A stretch of 31,466 nt of DNA. Origin: a bacterium. GTDB lineage: Bacteria > UBP15 > UBA6099. A model generated the notes under the pieces. That model worked only from the letters and a program-made list of their open reading frames with translations. It ran no database searches and was not told where the DNA came from. Position numbers and translations under genes: made by a program. Shown one piece after another: positions 1 through 30,338 of this stretch. The DNA lies in the NCBI GenBank assembly GCA_029564595.1, contig JAKQPS010000004.1:1-31466 (forward strand), given 5' to 3'. The stretch's first letter is position 1. Each line of letters opens with the position of its first letter.

Positions 1-50
1 AGGAACGAAGAAAATTCATAAGAGGGCAGCGTAAGGCTTTGTGGAAATCT

Positions 51-78
51 GCCCCCTCCCCTCCGGAGGGGAGGGGGC
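51..78. repeat. Perfect 28-bp G/C palindrome
   Basis: Two 14-base arms (GCCCCCTCCCCTCC and its exact complement) meet with no spacer. The sequence after it has no T-run on either strand, so it is not a standard intrinsic terminator. It lies about 110 bases before the first promoter-like -10 box. It could be a transcript-end hairpin for a gene outside the window or a cruciform. Confidence 0.7.
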
Positions 79-190
79 ATCGCCATCATCATACGCTTTA
101 CCTTGGAGATACTGATTTCGCAGAAACTACTTTACACAACTCTTTGAAGTCCTTTCTTCAATGACTTTCCGGCGCGAGGCGAGAGTGCGT

Positions 191-196
191 TATAAT
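191..196 (+). promoter_or_regulatory. -10 box of the first methyltransferase gene
   Basis: A perfect TATAAT lies 8 bases before the in-frame GTG at 205 and 17 bases before the ATG at 214. Transcription from it would begin near 203, giving an almost leaderless mRNA. No convincing -35 box is visible at 17-18 bases spacing, and there is no Shine-Dalgarno before either start. Confidence 0.5.
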
Positions 197-213
197 ATGC
201 GACTGTGACGCGT

Positions 214-1176
214 ATGAAGAAGAGAATCAGGTATATAGATTTATTTTGCGGAATCGGAGGGTTCCGGCTGGCGGTGGAGTCGGCGGCGGCGCGGCGGGGG
301 CTTGATGCGCGTTGCGTGTTTTCGTGCGACATCGACAGGCATTGCGCGCGGGCGTATGAGGCGAATTTCGGCGAGATTCCGGTCGGGGATATTACGGAGG
401 TAGAAGCGGCGCGGGCGCCGGATCACGAACTGCTGGTGGCGGGTTTTCCCTGTCAGCCTTTCAGCATTATCGGCAGGATGGAAGGCTTCGAGGACGCGAG
501 GGGAACGTTGTTTTTCGACATAGCGAGGATAGTCGAAAAGAAGAGGCCGGAGGCGTTGATACTTGAAAACGTGAAGACGCTCAAGGGGCACAACGGCGGA
601 AAGACGCTGAAGCGAATACTGGGCGCGCTTTCGGAGTTGGGGTACGCGACCGATTGGCGCACGCTAAACGCGCTGGATTTCGGGCTTCCGCAGAAGAGGG
701 AGAGGATATGGATTGTGGGCATGAGGGACGGCGGGGAAATGAAATGGCCGAGCGGGTCGGCGCGCATGACGCCTCTTTCCGAGTTGCTTGAAAAGAACCC
801 GCCGGAAAAGTTTTTTGCTTCCGAGCGAATCAGAGAAAAGAGGCTGTCGTCCGCAGCGAGAAAGCCGGGAGGACCGACGATCTGGCATGAGAACAAATCC
901 GGAAATGTCAGCGCGCATCCTTACTCGTGCGCGCTCCGCGCGGGAGCTTCCCACAACTATCTGCTGGTGGACGGCGAACGGCGGCTCACGCCTAGGGAGA
1001 TGCTGCGACTTCAGGGTTTTCCGGACGATTTCAAGATAGCGTGCAGCGACTCGCAGACGCGGAGGCAGGCGGGCAACAGTCTTCCGGTGAACGTGGCGGA
1101 AGCGGTGGCTGGGGGATTGTTCGACGCGCTTGGCTGGGGCCGGGGCGGCTCCCCGGACGCGTCCGGCGCGGAGTGA
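214..1176 (+). CDS. DNA (cytosine-5) methyltransferase
   Basis: This enzyme transfers a methyl group from S-adenosylmethionine to C5 of cytosine in a specific DNA site. The conserved C5-methyltransferase motifs appear in order: motif I DLFCGIGGFRLA (residues 9-20), motif IV GFPCQPFS with catalytic Cys80, the ENV motif, QKRERIWIVG (motif VIII), and the closing RLQGFPDDF and QAGNSLPVNV motifs (IX-X). At 320 residues it is a compact, complete member. I chose the ATG at 214 because motif I then starts close to the N-terminus; an in-frame GTG at 205 is possible. A Vsr gene follows after 5 bases, the classic dcm-vsr pairing. No restriction nuclease is adjacent, so it may be a solitary methyltransferase. 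The recognition sequence cannot be read from the protein. Confidence 0.95.
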   Translation: MKKRIRYIDLFCGIGGFRLAVESAAARRGLDARCVFSCDIDRHCARAYEANFGEIPVGDITEVEAARAPDHELLVAGFPCQPFSIIGRMEGFEDARGTLFFDIARIVEKKRPEALILENVKTLKGHNGGKTLKRILGALSELGYATDWRTLNALDFGLPQKRERIWIVGMRDGGEMKWPSGSARMTPLSELLEKNPPEKFFASERIREKRLSSAARKPGGPTIWHENKSGNVSAHPYSCALRAGASHNYLLVDGERRLTPREMLRLQGFPDDFKIACSDSQTRRQAGNSLPVNVAEAVAGGLFDALGWGRGGSPDASGAE

Positions 1177-12178: not shown

Positions 12179-12208
12179 TTCACAAAACAGGCCGCTTGAG
12201 TTTAGAAT
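12179..12208 (+). promoter_or_regulatory. Sigma70-type promoter of the VWA/flagellin-like gene
   Basis: A -35 box TTCACA (12179-12184, five of six consensus bases) and a -10 box TAGAAT (12203-12208) are separated by 18 bases. The expected transcription start coincides with the ATG at 12215, so the mRNA would be leaderless. No Shine-Dalgarno is present. Confidence 0.55.
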
Positions 12209-12214
12209 TGCCGT

Positions 12215-13513
12215 ATGGAAATTGGAAACCTTAAAACGGCGGGACCGCTCCCGGCGGCGCTGGCGAACCCGGCGGCGATAGAGAAGGTGGCGCGCAAACG
12301 CGTCTCCGCTCCCGCGCCCGCAATCCGCGCCCGCCTCATTCCCCCGCTGCATGTGCAACTGGGACGCAAACATCTCGATTCCATCCGGGACGAGATAGCG
12401 TCCGCCGAAGACGTGTTGCTGAACGTCTATGAAGATATCGAGATGTTCGACGCGCGCGCGTCGGCGCTGGACGACATCGCGTTTCTGCTCATGCGGATGA
12501 AGGACAGGCTGGACGATGTGGTGAGCGGGCGCGACAGGCGGGCGGATATCCGGGCCGGGATGAACGCGCTGGCCGAAGGGCTGGAACGCGCCGCCGAGTC
12601 CGCTAAAAGGCGCAATATCCCCCTTCTGAAACCTGTCTCGCGCGTCGCTTCGCCTCCCGAATCAGCCCCGGCGGTTCTGGCGGATATCGTGTTCGTCGTA
12701 AGCCGCTCGACCTCTATGAAAACCGACGCCGAGGCAATGCTGCGAGGCATGAACGCCTTCAGCTCAGACTTGGCGAACCGGGGAATCTCCGCCATGTTCG
12801 GCGCCCAGCCTTTCGAGCGCTCCTCTCAACCCGCCGGCCCGCTGCGCTCCTCCATCTTTGATATCTCGGACGACCTCCGCTCCATATTCTTCAACGGCGA
12901 GACCGCCAATGCGCTGGCCGCCGTGCGCCAAACCCTCGAAGACCAGTCTTTTAGAGAAAACTCGCTGAAAGCAATCGTCGTGGTGTCCGACCGGGACGCG
13001 GACGACGACTACGCTTCGGCGGGCGAAGAAGCGCTTGAAGCCGTCTCTAACGCGGGCGCGGTCGTGTTTGCCATAGCCGGAAAAGACTTCTTTTCCAACA
13101 GGCCGTTCTCCGCTCTCAACAGGCTGGTGGAAGGCTCAGGCGGGGAATACCTGAGCATAAACAAAGCGTCGTTCGCGGACAACTTCGCCGCGCTCGCCGA
13201 AAGAATCGCCGAAGCCCTGCTGTCTCGCGGAGCGCACGTGACGGAGACGAGCGAGCGAATCGTTCACATCGGCCCCGCCCCGGCTGACTCCTTCCTCGTT
13301 CAGTTCCCTGACTATCGCCCGGACGCGCTCGGCTTGAGGAACCTTCCTCTCGAAACCGAGGAAGACTTCGCCGCCGCGCTAGAAAAGATATCAGACGCCA
13401 TCGCCGCGCTCGCCGAAGACAAAACCGAAAAAGGCGCGCTCCTTGAGCGGCTCCGGCGCATCCTCCAGTTCTTCGACGGCATACGCGCCTTCAGGCTCGA
13501 TTTCCGCGCGTGA
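12215..13513 (+). CDS. VWA domain inserted between flagellin-D1-like segments
   Basis: Residues about 51-138 follow the pattern of the flagellin N-terminal D1 helices: SALDDIAFLLMRMKDRL aligns with the flagellin segment EGAL-x(5)-LQRMRELAV, followed by RADIRAGMNALAEGLERAA. Residues about 348-420 follow the flagellin C-terminal D1 region: HIGPAPADSF, FPDYRPDALGLRNLPLETEE, ALEKISDAIAAL, GALLERLRRIL. Between them (about 155-335) lies a von Willebrand factor A domain, ADIVFVVSRSTSM to FAIAGKDFF. Its metal site reads SRSTS instead of DxSxS (Ser163 in the first Asp position), while Thr230 and Asp259 are plausible remaining ligands. The terminal D0 segments needed to build a flagellar filament appear to be missing, and there is no signal peptide. 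Function is unknown; the architecture resembles a flagellin whose variable domain has been replaced. No other flagellar gene lies in the window. Confidence 0.72.
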   Translation: MEIGNLKTAGPLPAALANPAAIEKVARKRVSAPAPAIRARLIPPLHVQLGRKHLDSIRDEIASAEDVLLNVYEDIEMFDARASALDDIAFLLMRMKDRLDDVVSGRDRRADIRAGMNALAEGLERAAESAKRRNIPLLKPVSRVASPPESAPAVLADIVFVVSRSTSMKTDAEAMLRGMNAFSSDLANRGISAMFGAQPFERSSQPAGPLRSSIFDISDDLRSIFFNGETANALAAVRQTLEDQSFRENSLKAIVVVSDRDADDDYASAGEEALEAVSNAGAVVFAIAGKDFFSNRPFSALNRLVEGSGGEYLSINKASFADNFAALAERIAEALLSRGAHVTETSERIVHIGPAPADSFLVQFPDYRPDALGLRNLPLETEEDFAAALEKISDAIAALAEDKTEKGALLERLRRILQFFDGIRAFRLDFRA

Positions 13514-15197: not shown

Positions 15198-18146
15198 ATG
15201 ATATACAGTCTAGTCGTTCTCAACAAACCGGCCATCAATTCCGACAGGAACGAGAAAATGGGCAGGGTCAAAGGCTATGTTATCGACCCTGACGCCCGCA
15301 AGGTCCTCGCCTTCATTCTCGCTCCCGACGCCGAAAAAGGCTCGCTTGATGTGGTTCCTTTCGACGCGGTGAAACGGATTTACGACAACGCCGTCATCTG
15401 CGAGGGCATCCCTGCCCCCATCCCAATCTCGGACAGGCCCGACCTGCTCAACGTATTCCTAAAAGACGTCGCGCTAATCGGCTCTCAGGTTATCACGGAC
15501 TCCGGAATGCTGGCGGGCGCGGTGCACGACTTCGCGTTCGACGAAAAGACGGGCGACCTCGCCCAGCTTGCCCTCCTGCCGGAGATGCCCGCCGCAAAAC
15601 GCGTCTCCGCAAAATACATCCTGAAAATCACGCAGTCCAGAATAATGATAAAAGCCGAGGCGCTGGACGATGTGCCTCCGGCTCCCGAAAAACCGGGAGC
15701 GCCGGGAGACGCCGCCAAGAAGGTAGAATGCGCGCCCCCGCCTCCCCCGCCCGAACCTGAACGCCCGGCGGCGGCTCAGCCGCCCGCGCAGGAGCAGGCT
15801 TTCGAGACCCCGCAGCCCGCCGCAGAAGAACCCGCCCAAACTCCATCCGAGCCGGAACCCGCCGACTCCATATTCGACTCGACGGACTTGAAGGAGTTCA
15901 TCAAACAAGCTTTCTTCGAAATGACAGGCATGATAGTCGAGAGAGTCAACGCGCTCGACGCGTCGGAATCCATAAAAAGCCTCGGCGAGAGACTGCCGGA
16001 AATGCTGAAATCCATAGGAGGCGCGCGCGCGGAGGCCGACCCCGCAGACGAGTTGATTATCGAGGAAAAAATCAAGCGCGCCCTATCGCCTCACATTAAA
16101 GAGTTGAAGGCCGACATAAACAAGCTTCTGGAAATAGCGTCCTCAATGAGCGCGGCCCCGCAGGCTGAGCCGCCCGCCCCTCCCGACCTCTCCCCCATCT
16201 CAAAAGCGCTCGCCTCCGCAGAAGCCTCCTTGTCAGAAAAAATAGACGCGGCGTTCGATTCTATCCCGCGCAGCGAACCGAAAGACATCGAGGCCGCCGT
16301 CGGCTCGCTCACAAAAATCACGAGCGCCCTTGAAGACATCAAAGAGCGCGTCCCGGCGAAAGAAGACATAAGAAAACAAATAAGCGACTACAGCGTCAGG
16401 TTCGAGGAGCGGGCGAACGCCCTTAACAGCGCGTTTCTGGCCGAACTGGACAAACAGATGGGCGCGGCGCGCGAAGCCATCGCCTCCGTCGAGCGGAAAC
16501 GCTCCGGTCCGGACGCGTCCGAAATCGTCTCGAAACTCGACGACCGGATATCGAACGCGATGGAAGACTTCCGGGACAGGTTCGCCGCCCAGTTGTCCGT
16601 CGAACTTGAGGAAAACTTCGCGCAGAAGCTTGAGCGTTCTATCGCCGCCGGAATGAGGGAGGCCGCAGAGGTGGCCCGCTCTCAGGCGGACAACTTGGCC
16701 CTTCAGGCGAAATCCGCGAAGGACGCCGTAGCCAAACTTGCGGAAGCGCAGGCGGCTCTGCCGGACAGGCTGAACTCAGCGCTCGACGCGGTGAGAGCGA
16801 AACTCGACGAGATAGCCGGAAGACCCCGCGACGAATCCGCCGGTTTCGACGCTGACGCGCTCGAAGCGAGGCTCGCAGAACGGCTGGACAGGATATCAGC
16901 CGCGGTGACGGCGGGAACACAGGAAACAAAGGCGGGAGCAGAGCGCGCGCTCGACGGGTTGAAGGCGGCGGCGGAAAACATTAAAGAATCCGTCGACAGC
17001 CGGTTGGCAGAGCGCGCGGACGTCTGGAAGAAATATCAGGACGATTCCCTCGGCGCGGCCAGAAGGCTCGAAGAGCGCGTCCTTGAGTTGCGCGAACGCA
17101 ACGTCAGCCTTGAGGCCGCCTTTGATTCCGCCCGCTCCGCCATCCTCGACGAGGTGCGATCCTACACCGACACCACGCTCAAACCGGAAGACCTCATGAT
17201 CGTCCGCGAGTGGCTCGGCGAGATAGCTCCGAAACTCAGCGACGCCGTCGCCCTGAAAGTGGACGAAGGGATACGCTCCGCCGCCGAAGAAATAAAACGA
17301 GTGGCCGAAAACACGCGCGGCCAGTTCGACGCGCTCACGGACTCAATAGGGCTGGCCGGCGAAAACCTCAGCGGCCTCGCAGACCAGCTCGTGAACGAAC
17401 TCGGAAAACAGTTCGACGAAAAGATGTCGTCATTGCCGGAAAACGGTCTGGGCCGCGAGGCGCTGGAGCAGTTCAAGTCGGAAATCGCAGAGCGCGTTCA
17501 GGCGTCCACGGACGCCGTTCGGGAACGGCTCGACGCCGCCGCACGCGACCGCGCGGAAGAACGCGACGCCCTCTCTCTAAGGCTCAACGAATCTCTCGAA
17601 AACGCCGTCTCGAAAATCAGAGAGAGCCTCTTGTTGGGAATCGAGGCGGGCAGGCAGGAACTGGCGGAAATGAAAGACCTCGAAAGCCTCCGGGACCGGC
17701 TCGAAGGCCGCATCGGCGACGTCGTGGACGACATGGTCGGCAAAATCGAAAACAGACTCGACCAACGAGACAGATACTACGAGGAAGGCGTAAGCTCCAT
17801 ACTCGCAAACTTGGAAAAACTCGTCAGCAGGGGGCTTAAACCAGATTTCGAGGGCATGTTCTCCGGCGGCGGCCTTATCAGCAGCCTGTTCGGACAGAAA
17901 CCCGCGCCGCAGAAGATAACTGGGAAGACCTCGCCGTACGCCGGCTCGCAGCCGCAGAGCGCTTCCGACGCCTCCCTGCGCCGATTCGCCTACCTCATCG
18001 GGAAAAAAATAAAGTCGGATATCGTAGACGCGGACGGCTCGACAATCGCCGCAGCCGGAGACACCGTCAACGAGGCCCTAATACGCTCGCTCAGGGATAA
18101 GCAACGCACGCTCGACCTGATACGAAGCGTCGATTTCAACGCCTGA
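15198..18146 (+). CDS. Large PRC-barrel / coiled-coil protein
   Basis: Function unknown; 982 residues. Two PRC-barrel-like units form the N-terminus: residues about 1-72 (KMGRVKGYVIDPDARKVLAF, VVPFDAVKRI) and about 85-155 (LIGSQVITDSGMLAGAVHDF, VSAKYILKI). A Pro/Glu/Ala-rich linker follows (about 158-225), with nine prolines in a row in one stretch broken only by Glu and Ala. A very long, highly charged Ala/Glu/Lys/Arg coiled coil spans about 230-890. The last 50 residues (FAYLIGKKIKSDIVDADGST then IAAAGDTVNEALIRSLRD) form a small separate domain. There is no signal peptide or membrane segment, suggesting a cytoplasmic structural or scaffold role; that is inference. GAGG 6 bases before the ATG at 15198 supports the start. 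A TATTATAAA-type AT patch lies at about 15093. Confidence 0.85.
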   Translation: MIYSLVVLNKPAINSDRNEKMGRVKGYVIDPDARKVLAFILAPDAEKGSLDVVPFDAVKRIYDNAVICEGIPAPIPISDRPDLLNVFLKDVALIGSQVITDSGMLAGAVHDFAFDEKTGDLAQLALLPEMPAAKRVSAKYILKITQSRIMIKAEALDDVPPAPEKPGAPGDAAKKVECAPPPPPPEPERPAAAQPPAQEQAFETPQPAAEEPAQTPSEPEPADSIFDSTDLKEFIKQAFFEMTGMIVERVNALDASESIKSLGERLPEMLKSIGGARAEADPADELIIEEKIKRALSPHIKELKADINKLLEIASSMSAAPQAEPPAPPDLSPISKALASAEASLSEKIDAAFDSIPRSEPKDIEAAVGSLTKITSALEDIKERVPAKEDIRKQISDYSVRFEERANALNSAFLAELDKQMGAAREAIASVERKRSGPDASEIVSKLDDRISNAMEDFRDRFAAQLSVELEENFAQKLERSIAAGMREAAEVARSQADNLALQAKSAKDAVAKLAEAQAALPDRLNSALDAVRAKLDEIAGRPRDESAGFDADALEARLAERLDRISAAVTAGTQETKAGAERALDGLKAAAENIKESVDSRLAERADVWKKYQDDSLGAARRLEERVLELRERNVSLEAAFDSARSAILDEVRSYTDTTLKPEDLMIVREWLGEIAPKLSDAVALKVDEGIRSAAEEIKRVAENTRGQFDALTDSIGLAGENLSGLADQLVNELGKQFDEKMSSLPENGLGREALEQFKSEIAERVQASTDAVRERLDAAARDRAEERDALSLRLNESLENAVSKIRESLLLGIEAGRQELAEMKDLESLRDRLEGRIGDVVDDMVGKIENRLDQRDRYYEEGVSSILANLEKLVSRGLKPDFEGMFSGGGLISSLFGQKPAPQKITGKTSPYAGSQPQSASDASLRRFAYLIGKKIKSDIVDADGSTIAAAGDTVNEALIRSLRDKQRTLDLIRSVDFNA

Positions 18147-18351: not shown

Positions 18352-19182
18352 ATGGACAGACTGTACTGGGACATTTACGCCGTCAATACGGAGGACTTCC
18401 CGACCTTCATCGACCGGACCTCCAGCCACCTTCACATATATCTGGGCGACGTGCGCGAAGCCGTCGCGCACACAGACCAGATCAGCAAGTACGGCCGCGT
18501 CATCTACAACCAACAGGCTTGGGACACAGATAAGTTCAAGGAAATCAAAGACGAAGTCACCCAGCCTAACCACTACGACGTTATCAAGGAAACCATCCTC
18601 CGCGTGAACAAATACAAATGCGACAAGGTGGACATGGGATACGTGGGCCGCTGGAAAAACCCATATCAGATTGCCGACACTCATCTGCCGACCGGCATAA
18701 CCATCTCCTACGAGAAAAGACCCGAATGCCACTTCATCCGCACTGTTTTCTTCTCGCCGGAACACTGGTTCAATCTTCAGTGCAAGCCGCTGTTCCGCAC
18801 AGACCCCATAGTGGAAAAGGAGCCGAAAGGCTCTTGGAACATGAACCCGGTGGGGTTGATCGCCCCCAAACCGGAAAAATCTGCGGCGAACCGCCGCGCC
18901 ATGTTCAACATCGTTTCCGACTTCATCAAGGAGTTCAGGCCCGCCTTCACCGGCCTCGGCCTCTCCCAGTTCTACTTCAACTTTGAATCCGGAAACGCCT
19001 ACCTGACGGACAACGAAGCCAAAGAGCGGGAAGACCTGCTTCCTCTGATTTTTAGTTTCAGGGAAGACGGCAACCGCCCGATGTTCAGCGACTCTACGGA
19101 GATTCCGATCGACAACTTCGACAACACGCTTGCGCGCGACCAGAGGATGTTTTTCGACCGGAGATATTTTGAATTCCTCTAG
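18352..19182 (+). CDS. Protein of unknown function, 276 residues
   Basis: I do not recognise this family. The protein is soluble-looking (no signal peptide, no membrane segment) and rich in aromatic residues. It contains clusters such as DRLYWDIYAVN at the N-terminus, GYVGRWKNPYQIADTHLP, FFSPEHWFNLQCKPLF, and a C-terminal LARDQRMFFDRRYFEFL. The mixed charged and aromatic pattern looks like a folded alpha/beta enzyme or binding domain, but no catalytic motif is clear. It has its own -10 box and a good ribosome site (GAGGTG before 18352), and base composition like its neighbours. It is followed after 17 bases by a diguanylate cyclase in the same direction, so the two may work together; this is inference. 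Confidence 0.8.
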   Translation: MDRLYWDIYAVNTEDFPTFIDRTSSHLHIYLGDVREAVAHTDQISKYGRVIYNQQAWDTDKFKEIKDEVTQPNHYDVIKETILRVNKYKCDKVDMGYVGRWKNPYQIADTHLPTGITISYEKRPECHFIRTVFFSPEHWFNLQCKPLFRTDPIVEKEPKGSWNMNPVGLIAPKPEKSAANRRAMFNIVSDFIKEFRPAFTGLGLSQFYFNFESGNAYLTDNEAKEREDLLPLIFSFREDGNRPMFSDSTEIPIDNFDNTLARDQRMFFDRRYFEFL

Positions 19183-27745: not shown

Positions 27746-28171
27746 TTATTGTTTTTTATCAATCTCTTTAATCAACTTTTCAACGCACTTTTCAAAATTA
27801 TTGTTAATGTCATATTCCCAGAAACGCAAAACTATCCATCCGTCCTTTTTCAAGGAATTAGTCACTCTCCTGTCGCGTTTGCGGTTGTTTTCAATTTTTT
27901 CCTTCCAGTAACCATAGTTTGTTTTAGGTATGGTTCCTCTTGATTTATGTCCATGCCAAAAATCGGAATCAATAAATACGGCTATCTTTTTTCTTTTGAA
28001 TACAATGTCTGGCTTGCCGAGTATTGAAGCCACGTTTTTAGAAAAGTAAATCTTTCTTCTATTTAGCTCGCGAATCATTTTTATTTCGGGAGCGGTGCCG
28101 AAAGAGCGGATATTGCTCATGTTTTTTTTTCGTTGCTCAGGAGTGAGATTATCCAAATCAAAAAGGCTCAA
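27746..28171 (-). CDS. Vsr-type endonuclease of the RM cassette
   Basis: A second very-short-patch-repair endonuclease, 141 residues. It has SNIRSFGTAPEIKM, GKPDIVF with the catalytic Asp, AVFIDSDFWHGHKS with the active-site His, YWKEKIENNRKRDRRV and GWIVLRFWEYDI. Unlike the copy at 1182, the Cys residues around the active site are replaced (DSDFWHGH for DGCFWHGH), so the structural zinc site is probably absent, a variant common among RM-linked Vsr proteins. It is the last gene of the AT-rich cassette, starting 2 bases after the nuclease gene ends. Its role is expected to be repair of T:G mismatches at the site modified by the neighbouring C5 methyltransferase. Confidence 0.93.
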   Translation of the reverse strand: MSLFDLDNLTPEQRKKNMSNIRSFGTAPEIKMIRELNRRKIYFSKNVASILGKPDIVFKRKKIAVFIDSDFWHGHKSRGTIPKTNYGYWKEKIENNRKRDRRVTNSLKKDGWIVLRFWEYDINNNFEKCVEKLIKEIDKKQ

Positions 28172-28173
28172 TA

Positions 28174-29124
28174 TTAAACGCTGAAATCCAGATAGTAGTT
28201 TTCATCGTCTATTTTGTAAATGGCGATGTCTGTTCTCCCATAGATATCCAAATGATCGGCAAGAACTAAAGCGCCGGAAGGCAAACCCAGTCTTCTTCTG
28301 AAATAAGAACCTAGTATGGCGTTGCTTGGTTTTGATTCTATGGCTTTGTCATTGTCCTGAGCAATAACACAAAGAATGCTTTCTCCATCGTCAGTGACAA
28401 CATTAAAATGATGCCGTCTTGGCGGGAAAAAACCAGTTCTGGCAATCTCGGCAGGAATTCTCAAATATGCTTGATTTTTATCTCTTCCCAGCCTTTGACC
28501 CCAATTTAGACCTGACTGAACCGGAACCCTGCCTTGCCTGTCAAGAAATGATAATCTAATCGAATCAGGACCTTTATAAGGTATTTCTTTTTTCTTTTTC
28601 GATACAACATTTTCAACATCCTTTGTTCTGCGGCACCTTTCGTCATAAAAAATCACCATGCTTTCAACATCTGCATTGTCACAAGAAACACTTCTATCAA
28701 AAAGCTGTTTAAACATGCTGTGTGTTTCTTTGGGATCCGATTCAGAAACAACCTCTGTATATCCTCCGAAAAAACCATTGTGTGTGTAGTTGGCCGAACC
28801 GACAAAAGATATACTAGGCTTTTCACCAGCTACCCATGTGTATGTTTTCGCGTGAACAGGAGGACCGTCCATAATATATCTGCAATAAAATCGATCTTTT
28901 AAATCCCGTTCTACCATTTTTTTAAAAGAAAGATGATTTCCAAATCCAATACCGTCTTTCGGGCACATTCCGACAATCAAGCATATTTTCGTTGATGCCG
29001 GAATCGCCTCAAAGTGCTTTGACGCCATCGCCGCCGAAGCATATCCCGATACAATCAGAAGTTTTTCACAGCCGTGTTCTGCTGGCTTGACCAATACATT
29101 ATTAAAAAGATCGTCTTTAATCAT
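28174..29124 (-). CDS. PLD-family restriction endonuclease (NgoFVII/BfiI-like)
   Basis: A 316-residue nuclease with one phospholipase D-type HxK motif: PPVHAKTYTW (His91, Lys93) followed by SFVGSANYTHNGF (Ser110, Asn112). A single motif per chain implies a dimeric active site that needs no metal, as in BfiI. The C-terminal half (from about residue 190) contains a likely DNA-binding domain (WGQRLGRDKNQAYLRIPAEI, FFPPRRHHFNVVTDDG). This arrangement is typical of NgoFVII-family restriction enzymes. It lies between a C5 methyltransferase (2 bases upstream) and Vsr, which strongly supports a type II restriction role. The recognition site cannot be deduced. Base composition is clearly AT-richer than the rest of the window. 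Confidence 0.9.
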   Translation of the reverse strand: MIKDDLFNNVLVKPAEHGCEKLLIVSGYASAAMASKHFEAIPASTKICLIVGMCPKDGIGFGNHLSFKKMVERDLKDRFYCRYIMDGPPVHAKTYTWVAGEKPSISFVGSANYTHNGFFGGYTEVVSESDPKETHSMFKQLFDRSVSCDNADVESMVIFYDERCRRTKDVENVVSKKKKEIPYKGPDSIRLSFLDRQGRVPVQSGLNWGQRLGRDKNQAYLRIPAEIARTGFFPPRRHHFNVVTDDGESILCVIAQDNDKAIESKPSNAILGSYFRRRLGLPSGALVLADHLDIYGRTDIAIYKIDDENYYLDFSV

Positions 29125-29126
29125 GC

Positions 29127-30338
29127 TTAAAGTCCGCCAAATGAGAGCTCCAAATTCGTTTCCTCAAAACTCATGTTTGCGCTTATTGAATTATACTTGA
29201 CTCCGGCGAAGGTTTTTAAAACAGCGGTTGTGATAATTTCCGACAGCTTTGGGGGAACAGCCATTCCTATTTGCTTTCTGACGCTTTCTTTCGATCCTTT
29301 GAATTCATAACCATCTGGAAAAGTTTGTAATCTTGCGCGTTCTCGATTTGTCAAAGCCCGTGGTTCTAACCAGTGATAACAATGTGTTCCGCCACCGCCG
29401 CTTCCAGTAATAGTATATGAAGGTTTATCTGGATGCAGTCTCCTATATATTTGACTTATTCTTGCACCCTTTACGTTGAGTCTTAAATGCTCTGGCATGT
29501 TTGAGTTCCAAACATTATCCCCGGGTTGAATATGCTTTAATCTTTCCACAACAGTTTTCGACTGTGTTGTTCTGTCTTGATTCATCGCCGTGCTGGGTAT
29601 AGGCGGTATTTCCAATGCTTCTCTAGCGGTAATATGCTTTCCTAATGTCGTAGGAGCAGGAACCTGAAAAGACAACCCAAGCGATTCATGAATACCGACA
29701 ATAATAATACGATGCCGGGTTTGCGGAATGCCGTATTCTTCAGCTTTATATAAATGCGCGGTCAATTTGTATCCGCCTCCCGAAGATTTCAAATCCCTAA
29801 CTATAGTTTTAAATGCGCTTCCATTATTGGCGCTCACAATACCGCTTACATTTTCAGCAATGAAAAACTTCGGTTTTAAGCAGTCAATAACTTTGATCCC
29901 ATAATTATACAGCGGGCCATATTTTCCATTAATTCCTTTCTTATCTCCAACCAAGCTGAAATCGTTGCATGGAAAACCGAAAGCAAAAGCCTCTATCTCT
30001 TCGAGTTTCGAAATGTTTAAGAAGCGCACATCCTTAGTAATCACTGATTTAGGAGAGTCAGGACAAATGTTGTGTCTATATGTTTCACACGCGTCTTCGT
30101 CAAAGTCGCTTGCCCAAACGTGTCTTAAGCGGTATGTCTCCTCTTCGTTATGCGCGCATGCTCGTAAAGCTCCGTATGCCAGCCCGCCGGGACCACAGAA
30201 TAACTCTCCATAATTCAAATAAACGGCTTCTCTGTTTCCAAATCCAGAATGCTCCTCAGCAACCTTTCCATATGAAGAGCAATATGTAGTGTAAGTCTTT
30301 TTTCTGGTTTTGCTTTTTTTCACAATCTTTTTTTTCAT
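29127..30338 (-). CDS. DNA (cytosine-5) methyltransferase of the RM cassette
   Basis: A 403-residue C5 methyltransferase that would protect host DNA from the adjacent nuclease. Motif I is YGELFCGPGGLAYGAL (about 43-58). Motif IV is GFPCNDFS with catalytic Cys124; the usual Gln after Cys is Asn. ENVSG, YGIPQTRHRIIIVG (motif VIII), and ARLQTFPDGYEF with KQIGMAVPP (IX-X) follow. The target-recognition region (about 230-320) includes SYTITGSGGGGTHCYHW. The N-terminus is Lys-rich. AGAGG is 5 bases before the ATG, and a TAAAAT -10 box lies upstream. It heads a tightly packed three-gene unit. AT-rich codon use unlike the flanking genes suggests recent gain. Confidence 0.95.
   Translation of the reverse strand: MKKKIVKKSKTRKKTYTTYCSSYGKVAEEHSGFGNREAVYLNYGELFCGPGGLAYGALRACAHNEEETYRLRHVWASDFDEDACETYRHNICPDSPKSVITKDVRFLNISKLEEIEAFAFGFPCNDFSLVGDKKGINGKYGPLYNYGIKVIDCLKPKFFIAENVSGIVSANNGSAFKTIVRDLKSSGGGYKLTAHLYKAEEYGIPQTRHRIIIVGIHESLGLSFQVPAPTTLGKHITAREALEIPPIPSTAMNQDRTTQSKTVVERLKHIQPGDNVWNSNMPEHLRLNVKGARISQIYRRLHPDKPSYTITGSGGGGTHCYHWLEPRALTNRERARLQTFPDGYEFKGSKESVRKQIGMAVPPKLSEIITTAVLKTFAGVKYNSISANMSFEETNLELSFGGL

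Follow-up and report, generated by a model that had tools for sequence, protein, structure and literature searches.

A D0-less flagellin paralogue with a VWA domain between its D1 ends in UBP15 bacteria

The gene at 12215-13513 (+) of the window, the whole stretch of 31,466 nucleotides analyzed here, encodes a 432-aa protein (P0001) that keeps the D1 body of flagellin at both ends, has a VWA domain where D2/D3 would be, and lacks both D0 segments. This architecture is supported by the reading frame, Pfam, an orthologue alignment, hhalign and a PDB-sequence profile search. The gene is present in one copy in each of the seven genomes searched from the candidate phylum UBP15, which suggests that a filament protein was recruited to a new, non-filament job. 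We favor, at a probability of about 0.5, a flagellin paralogue that would work as a soluble, non-polymerising and probably cytoplasmic binding protein.

Flagellin D1 ends around a VWA domain

Pfam analysis of the single 432-aa sequence returns the VWA domain and no flagellin domain, thus the flagellin homology becomes visible with family profiles. Five lines of evidence concur on it. An HMM built from VWA-free flagellins scores the D0-less family at 7.8-29.2 bits (12.3 for P0001, 29.2 for P0007, the orthologue from G005), compared with at most 6.8 among 4,207 decoys made by shuffling or reversal and ≤0.4 for the other proteins of the window. NCBIfam flagellin models are the best hits of the orthologues P0007 and P0005 (E 1.8e-5 to 1.9e-4). 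Using hhalign, the family aligns with VWA-free flagellins at E 2.9e-12; family positions 61-424 fall on flagellin 53-219, with both halves aligned and the VWA domain skipped. The top matches of the family profile among PDB sequences are all flagellins (best E 3.5e-10), over an N-terminal (61-144) and a C-terminal (351-424) stretch. In genomes of other phyla the same profile matches at query positions 60-146 and 352-426, and those matched ORFs that were checked score as flagellins. Both ends are homologous to flagellin D1. A sequence-only reading of this DNA had recognized D1 patterns at both ends and would have abandoned them had the terminal regions failed to match flagellin profiles; the significant family-profile matches uphold it.

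The N-terminal part (residues 51-138, 12365..12628, +) comprises the ND1 helices and the start of the hairpin, as placed by hhalign, by the alignment with D1 rows and by modeled helices 51-103 and 109-129. The C-terminal part (residues 346-431, 13250..13507, +) comprises the D1 beta-hairpin (347-363) with the motif HIGPAP at 351-356, followed by DALGL at 370-374 and the CD1 helix at 382-431; it is placed by hhalign, alignment, NCBIfam, the PDB profile and the model. Note that a MAFFT alignment with full-length flagellins misplaced the C-terminal half, and that trimming the flagellins to D1 corrected the placement.

An AlphaFold model computed from the seven-member D0-less family only yielded a good VWA domain with ends at low pLDDT, and a fold search with it listed only VWA chains. 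The low-confidence ends are not evidence against D1. A second model, for which flagellin D1 rows from loci found in viral contigs were added to the alignment, reached a mean pLDDT of 78 and a pTM of 0.74, with helices 51-103, 109-129 and 382-431 and strands 347-351 and 359-363. In VIA-align the flagellin filament subunit 9oxk_A ranked second (Z 17.7, rmsd 3.1, 183 residues aligned, model 47..432 on chain 44..230). The two ends thus pair into a D1 as the sequence-only reading expected, in a model that needed flagellin rows to do so; it shows that the sequence fits a D1 fold, an outcome which the added rows favor.

The VWA domain occupies residues 155-340 (12677..13234, +), the variable-region position proposed earlier. 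Pfam PF00092 matches residues 157-309 with E 1.8e-5, above the gathering score. The domain is modeled at a pLDDT of mostly about 80-90, and its Rossmann-like fold aligns to VWA/I domains with Z 16-18, up to 17.8 in the model with flagellin rows. The family alignment reveals a degenerate metal site: the MIDAS motif DxSxS reads SRSTS at residues 163-167 (12701..12715, +), with Ser 163 replacing the first metal-site Asp, as already noticed from the sequence. Elsewhere in the family the position holds SRSTS/SRSAS, DRNRW, SRAKS or DRREN, so that an intact MIDAS (DxSxS...T...D) was not found and DxSxS is lost in every lineage. Among the closest fold matches of the VWA domain are subunits of TFIIH and of the 26S proteasome, both of them intracellular complexes. 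The VWAs of p34 and Rpn10 have no metal site. TFIIH p34 and Rpn10 resemble the D0-less family in a VWA fold (Z 16-18) without a metal site, but they belong to eukaryotic complexes and have no flagellin body.

A VWA domain inside a flagellin, which the sequence-only reading took to be undescribed, is already known. vWFA is the 8th most frequent domain in flagellin variable regions, with 21 cases listed in 2017 (PMC5595980 Table 1), and about ten VWA-flagellins, the majority retaining D0 intact, occur in UBP15 itself. VWA-flagellins (PMC5595980; L030, L073, L115-L118 and L033 here) share the order N-D1, VWA, C-D1 with the D0-less family but keep D0 and an intact DxSxS-type metal motif, D-x-[ST]-x-S being kept in 9/9 compared; the D0-less family has neither. 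For the D0-less branch we found no published description. Flagellinolysin (NF033876) likewise carries a foreign domain in the flagellin variable region, and among the NCBIfam models it is its C-D1 part that P0007 and P0005 match best. However, its insert is a metallopeptidase, D0 is present and it assembles into filaments; the 432-aa sequence has no HExxH, its insert being the VWA domain.

The flagellin set of UBP15 is unusually varied, with 7-21 Flagellin_N loci per genome. Two flagellins, L024:2254-3921 (-) (G000:C138) and L119:152-1819 (-) (G006:C328), carry an insert containing HExxH (HEMTHAV); the match of L024 to the flagellinolysin model NF033876 (6e-24) falls short of the curated cut-off. 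Others are 570-980 aa long (L120:170-2026 (+), L079:639-2396 (-), L023:3528-6476 (+) and L022:1397-4153 (-)), and by eye the inserts of L120, L079 and L023 resemble TolB/PD40 beta-propeller repeats (SPDGxxIAF...). In another flagellin gene, L028 (G000:C36:20820-21223), the Flagellin_N match is divided between two frames and TGA stops interrupt the 5' part; the copy may have decayed, or the assembly may be wrong there.

Loss of D0 and the new termini

Both D0 segments are absent, in agreement with the sequence-only reading. The hhalign match covers flagellin positions 53-219 out of 288, which leaves the N- and C-terminal D0 outside the match. In place of the N-terminal D0 segment (the ERLSSGxRINxAxDD region) there is an unrelated extension (residues 1-50, 12215..12364, +) with a conserved motif around [LI]P-x(5)-[DN]P-x(2)-[IL]-x-K-[VL] and a basic patch in the family alignment. 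About 48-50 residues of this extension have a pLDDT of about 33-44 and are predicted to be disordered. Outside the D0-less family, no convincing second copy of the motif was found in the seven UBP15 genomes at E<0.005. At the other end, flagellins run on for ~65 residues beyond the point where the D0-less family stops, and the C-terminal D0 with its FliS-binding segment is missing. Instead, a new conserved terminus, FD-x-[IV]-R-x-[FY]-[RK]-LDF-x (residues 420-432, 13472..13510, +), replaces the spoke and CD0 in every orthologue with a complete 3' end.

The ORF starts with ATG at 12215 and its stop ends at 13513, as first described. The in-frame opening begins just 3 codons 5' of the ATG (open frame 435 aa), therefore no upstream in-frame D0 can be hidden. 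A misannotated start or a frameshift concealing D0 is ruled out by this closed frame and by the conserved termini, and a pseudogene by a dN/dS of 0.09-0.12 within the genus over the whole gene, which indicates purifying selection.

Distribution, gene context and origin

Orthologues are 94-96% identical within the genus and about 40% across families; the one in G004 is cut by a contig end. Family searches of ~380 genomes from elsewhere gave ordinary flagellins, VWA-flagellins and other VWA proteins only, and no further D0-less member. Scans of viral contigs with two family alignments, and searches of plasmids, gave no relatives either. Statements on the window's own genome rest on searches of its sequences. 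The sequence-only reading had suggested looking for homologues of the same architecture near flagellar genes: the homologues exist in 7/7 UBP15 genomes, but no flagellar gene lies beside any of them.

The order GH31, D0-less gene, GDPD, DUF1285, PRC-coil is conserved within the genus only, and in the window the GH31 gene end adjoins the ORF on its upstream side. Between families the context differs and includes cell-envelope or house-keeping genes. Flagellins co-occur with the D0-less gene in all seven genomes. Two genes downstream of GDPD, a 982-aa protein (15198-18146) with a PRC-barrel N-terminus and a long apolipoprotein-like coiled coil is 95-97% identical in the genus. A 276-aa ORF without Pfam match (18352-19182) is 99-100% identical across the genus members covered, exceeding the conservation of its neighbors. 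At opposite ends of the window are two separate modules of a C5-cytosine methyltransferase and a Vsr-type endonuclease (205-1670 and 27746-30338), the latter also with an NgoFVII-type PLD restriction enzyme.

Upstream of the ATG lies a sigma-70-type promoter-like site, TTCACA-N18-TAGAAT (12179..12208, +), a consensus match at 10/12 positions where 0.2 such matches are expected in shuffles. Only 6 nt separate the end of its putative -10 box from the ATG, which makes a leaderless mRNA probable. By sequence, the orthologues in G002, G004 and G005 have TAGAAT or TAAAAT at the same 6-nt distance. Late-class (sigma-28-type) sites precede several, though not all, canonical flagellins: 5/7 of the ordinary-sized ones tested have a site with 0-1 mismatch, as do the eroded VWA-flagellins, and among the canonical flagellins of the window's genome two sites are perfect and the others have one mismatch. 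None of the five D0-less members tested has such a site within one mismatch.

The D0-less family is collinear with VWA-flagellins in hhalign (E 2.3e-25). Complete proteins with Flagellin_N, VWA and Flagellin_C occur in UBP15 (G001, G005, G006), and Flagellin_N plus Flagellin_C were found in L030, L073, L116, L117 and L033. In the D1 tree the D0-less family forms one clade (100/100) on a long branch. It groups with UBP15 flagellins as a whole (84/99) and, in the best tree, weakly with seven UBP15 VWA-flagellins (50/79). A constraint uniting it with all nine VWA-flagellins, a set that includes one from another phylum, was rejected (p-AU 3e-5), as is expected if the VWA-flagellins are not one clade themselves. 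A further complete VWA-flagellin is present in another family (f32: G035, plus a probable one in G317). By its D1, the G035 protein clusters with flagellins from other phyla and apart from UBP15; flagellins therefore acquired VWA on more than one occasion, or it passed from one flagellin to another. Whether the domain of the D0-less family came from VWA-flagellins is not settled by the VWA tree. Descent from a D0-bearing UBP15 VWA-flagellin is most likely, if unproven. In G003 (92% complete) the D0-less gene is kept and no D0-bearing VWA-flagellin was found. A second VWA-flagellin lineage with eroded D0 consists of L072:1185-2687 (-) (G000:C107), the one VWA-flagellin of the window's own genome, and L031:623-2125 (+) (G001:C614). 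L072 has no Pfam Flagellin_N or Flagellin_C match and the lineage still has a sigma-28-type site; it may be an independent route towards D0 loss.

A binding protein and its rivals

In flagellins, D0 builds the core of the filament and lines its channel, and the C-terminal D0 is the part that FliS grips (PMC7248283). A paralogue that kept only the D1 body, with VWA for D2/D3, and that probably arose inside UBP15 from a D0-bearing VWA-flagellin, could neither join the filament core nor offer FliS, the export chaperone, its C-terminal site. It should not polymerise or be normal FliS cargo, and would most likely stay in the cytoplasm as a soluble monomer. The suggestion of a D1-like scaffold that no longer polymerises, one of two offered by the sequence-only reading, fits this picture, with the loss of polymerisation following from the loss of D0. 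The D1 body may serve as a rigid frame, or mimic flagellin, and so offer a partner both the conserved new ends and a VWA surface that works without metal; residence in the cytoplasm is inferred, as is any partner.

A precedent exists in HP1076 of H. pylori, which resembles flagellin D1, stands on its own without any D0 and forms no polymer. In its binding to FliS it uses the D1 site; it competes with flagellin in vitro, is membrane-associated and has no motility phenotype (PMC7248283). The D0-less family shares the D1-like fold without D0 and presumably the lack of polymerisation, while HP1076 has 171 aa, no VWA and proven FliS binding, which is conjectural for the D0-less family. The HP1076 entries 3K1H, 3K1I and 6LEA do not appear among the PDB-sequence profile matches to E 1, a negative that holds for this sensitivity only. 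As a pathway for the partner, flagellin handling would be the most economical, with D1 competing for or assisting FliS. FliS is found in 4/7 UBP15 genomes and was not found in the window's own (97% complete), which weakens the FliS step; taken alone, we regard it as a tentative lead. The fuller version, a phylum-wide domesticated flagellin that regulates or chaperones flagellin traffic as a cytoplasmic D1 mimic with a metal-independent VWA, is possible but doubtful.

Points against the favored binding protein are the missing flagellar neighbors, the use of flagellin rows in the high-confidence D1 model and the long branch in the D1 tree. The first of these, together with contexts that vary between families, the sigma-70-type promoter-like site and the TFIIH and proteasome fold matches, suits a cytoplasmic scaffold without flagellar link, in which D1 is only a coiled-coil frame for a protein-binding VWA, like intracellular MIDAS-less VWAs. 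We hold this scaffold to be a speculative alternative, as flagellins are also present in 7/7 carrier genomes. The cytoplasmic location is itself open to challenge, because the N-terminus, being disordered and basic, could direct export. If it were a flagellar type III signal, the protein might leave the cell through the filament and act in soluble form as a VWA effector or adhesin. Campylobacter FlaC would be a parallel: PMC5466977 describes it as a flagellin that is secreted and has no structural role. FlhA, the export gate, is present, the N-terminal motif is conserved, and cysteines are nearly absent from the D0-less family, as in flagellins. On the other hand, FlaC still has its flagellin ends whereas the D0-less family has no FliS-binding C-terminal D0, no sigma-28-type site was found within one mismatch, and the VWA has lost the MIDAS that extracellular adhesive VWAs usually have; we consider export rather unlikely. 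Least convincing is the other suggestion of the sequence-only reading, a filament-associated adhesion or sensing protein that still joins or decorates the filament via D1. The D1 outer-tube helices are retained and related D0-bearing VWA-flagellins plausibly do so, but with both D0 segments missing, a degenerate MIDAS, no sigma-28-type site within one mismatch, no flagellar genes nearby and no signal peptide in evidence, this role is highly improbable.

Flagellins are normally viewed as dedicated polymer subunits. If the favored binding protein is real, a lineage-wide paralogue that shed D0 while its D1 stayed under selection would mean that D1 is useful by itself, something HP1076 already hints at. 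It would also provide a natural non-polymerising flagellin with which D1 alone could be probed in FliS/FlhA traffic.
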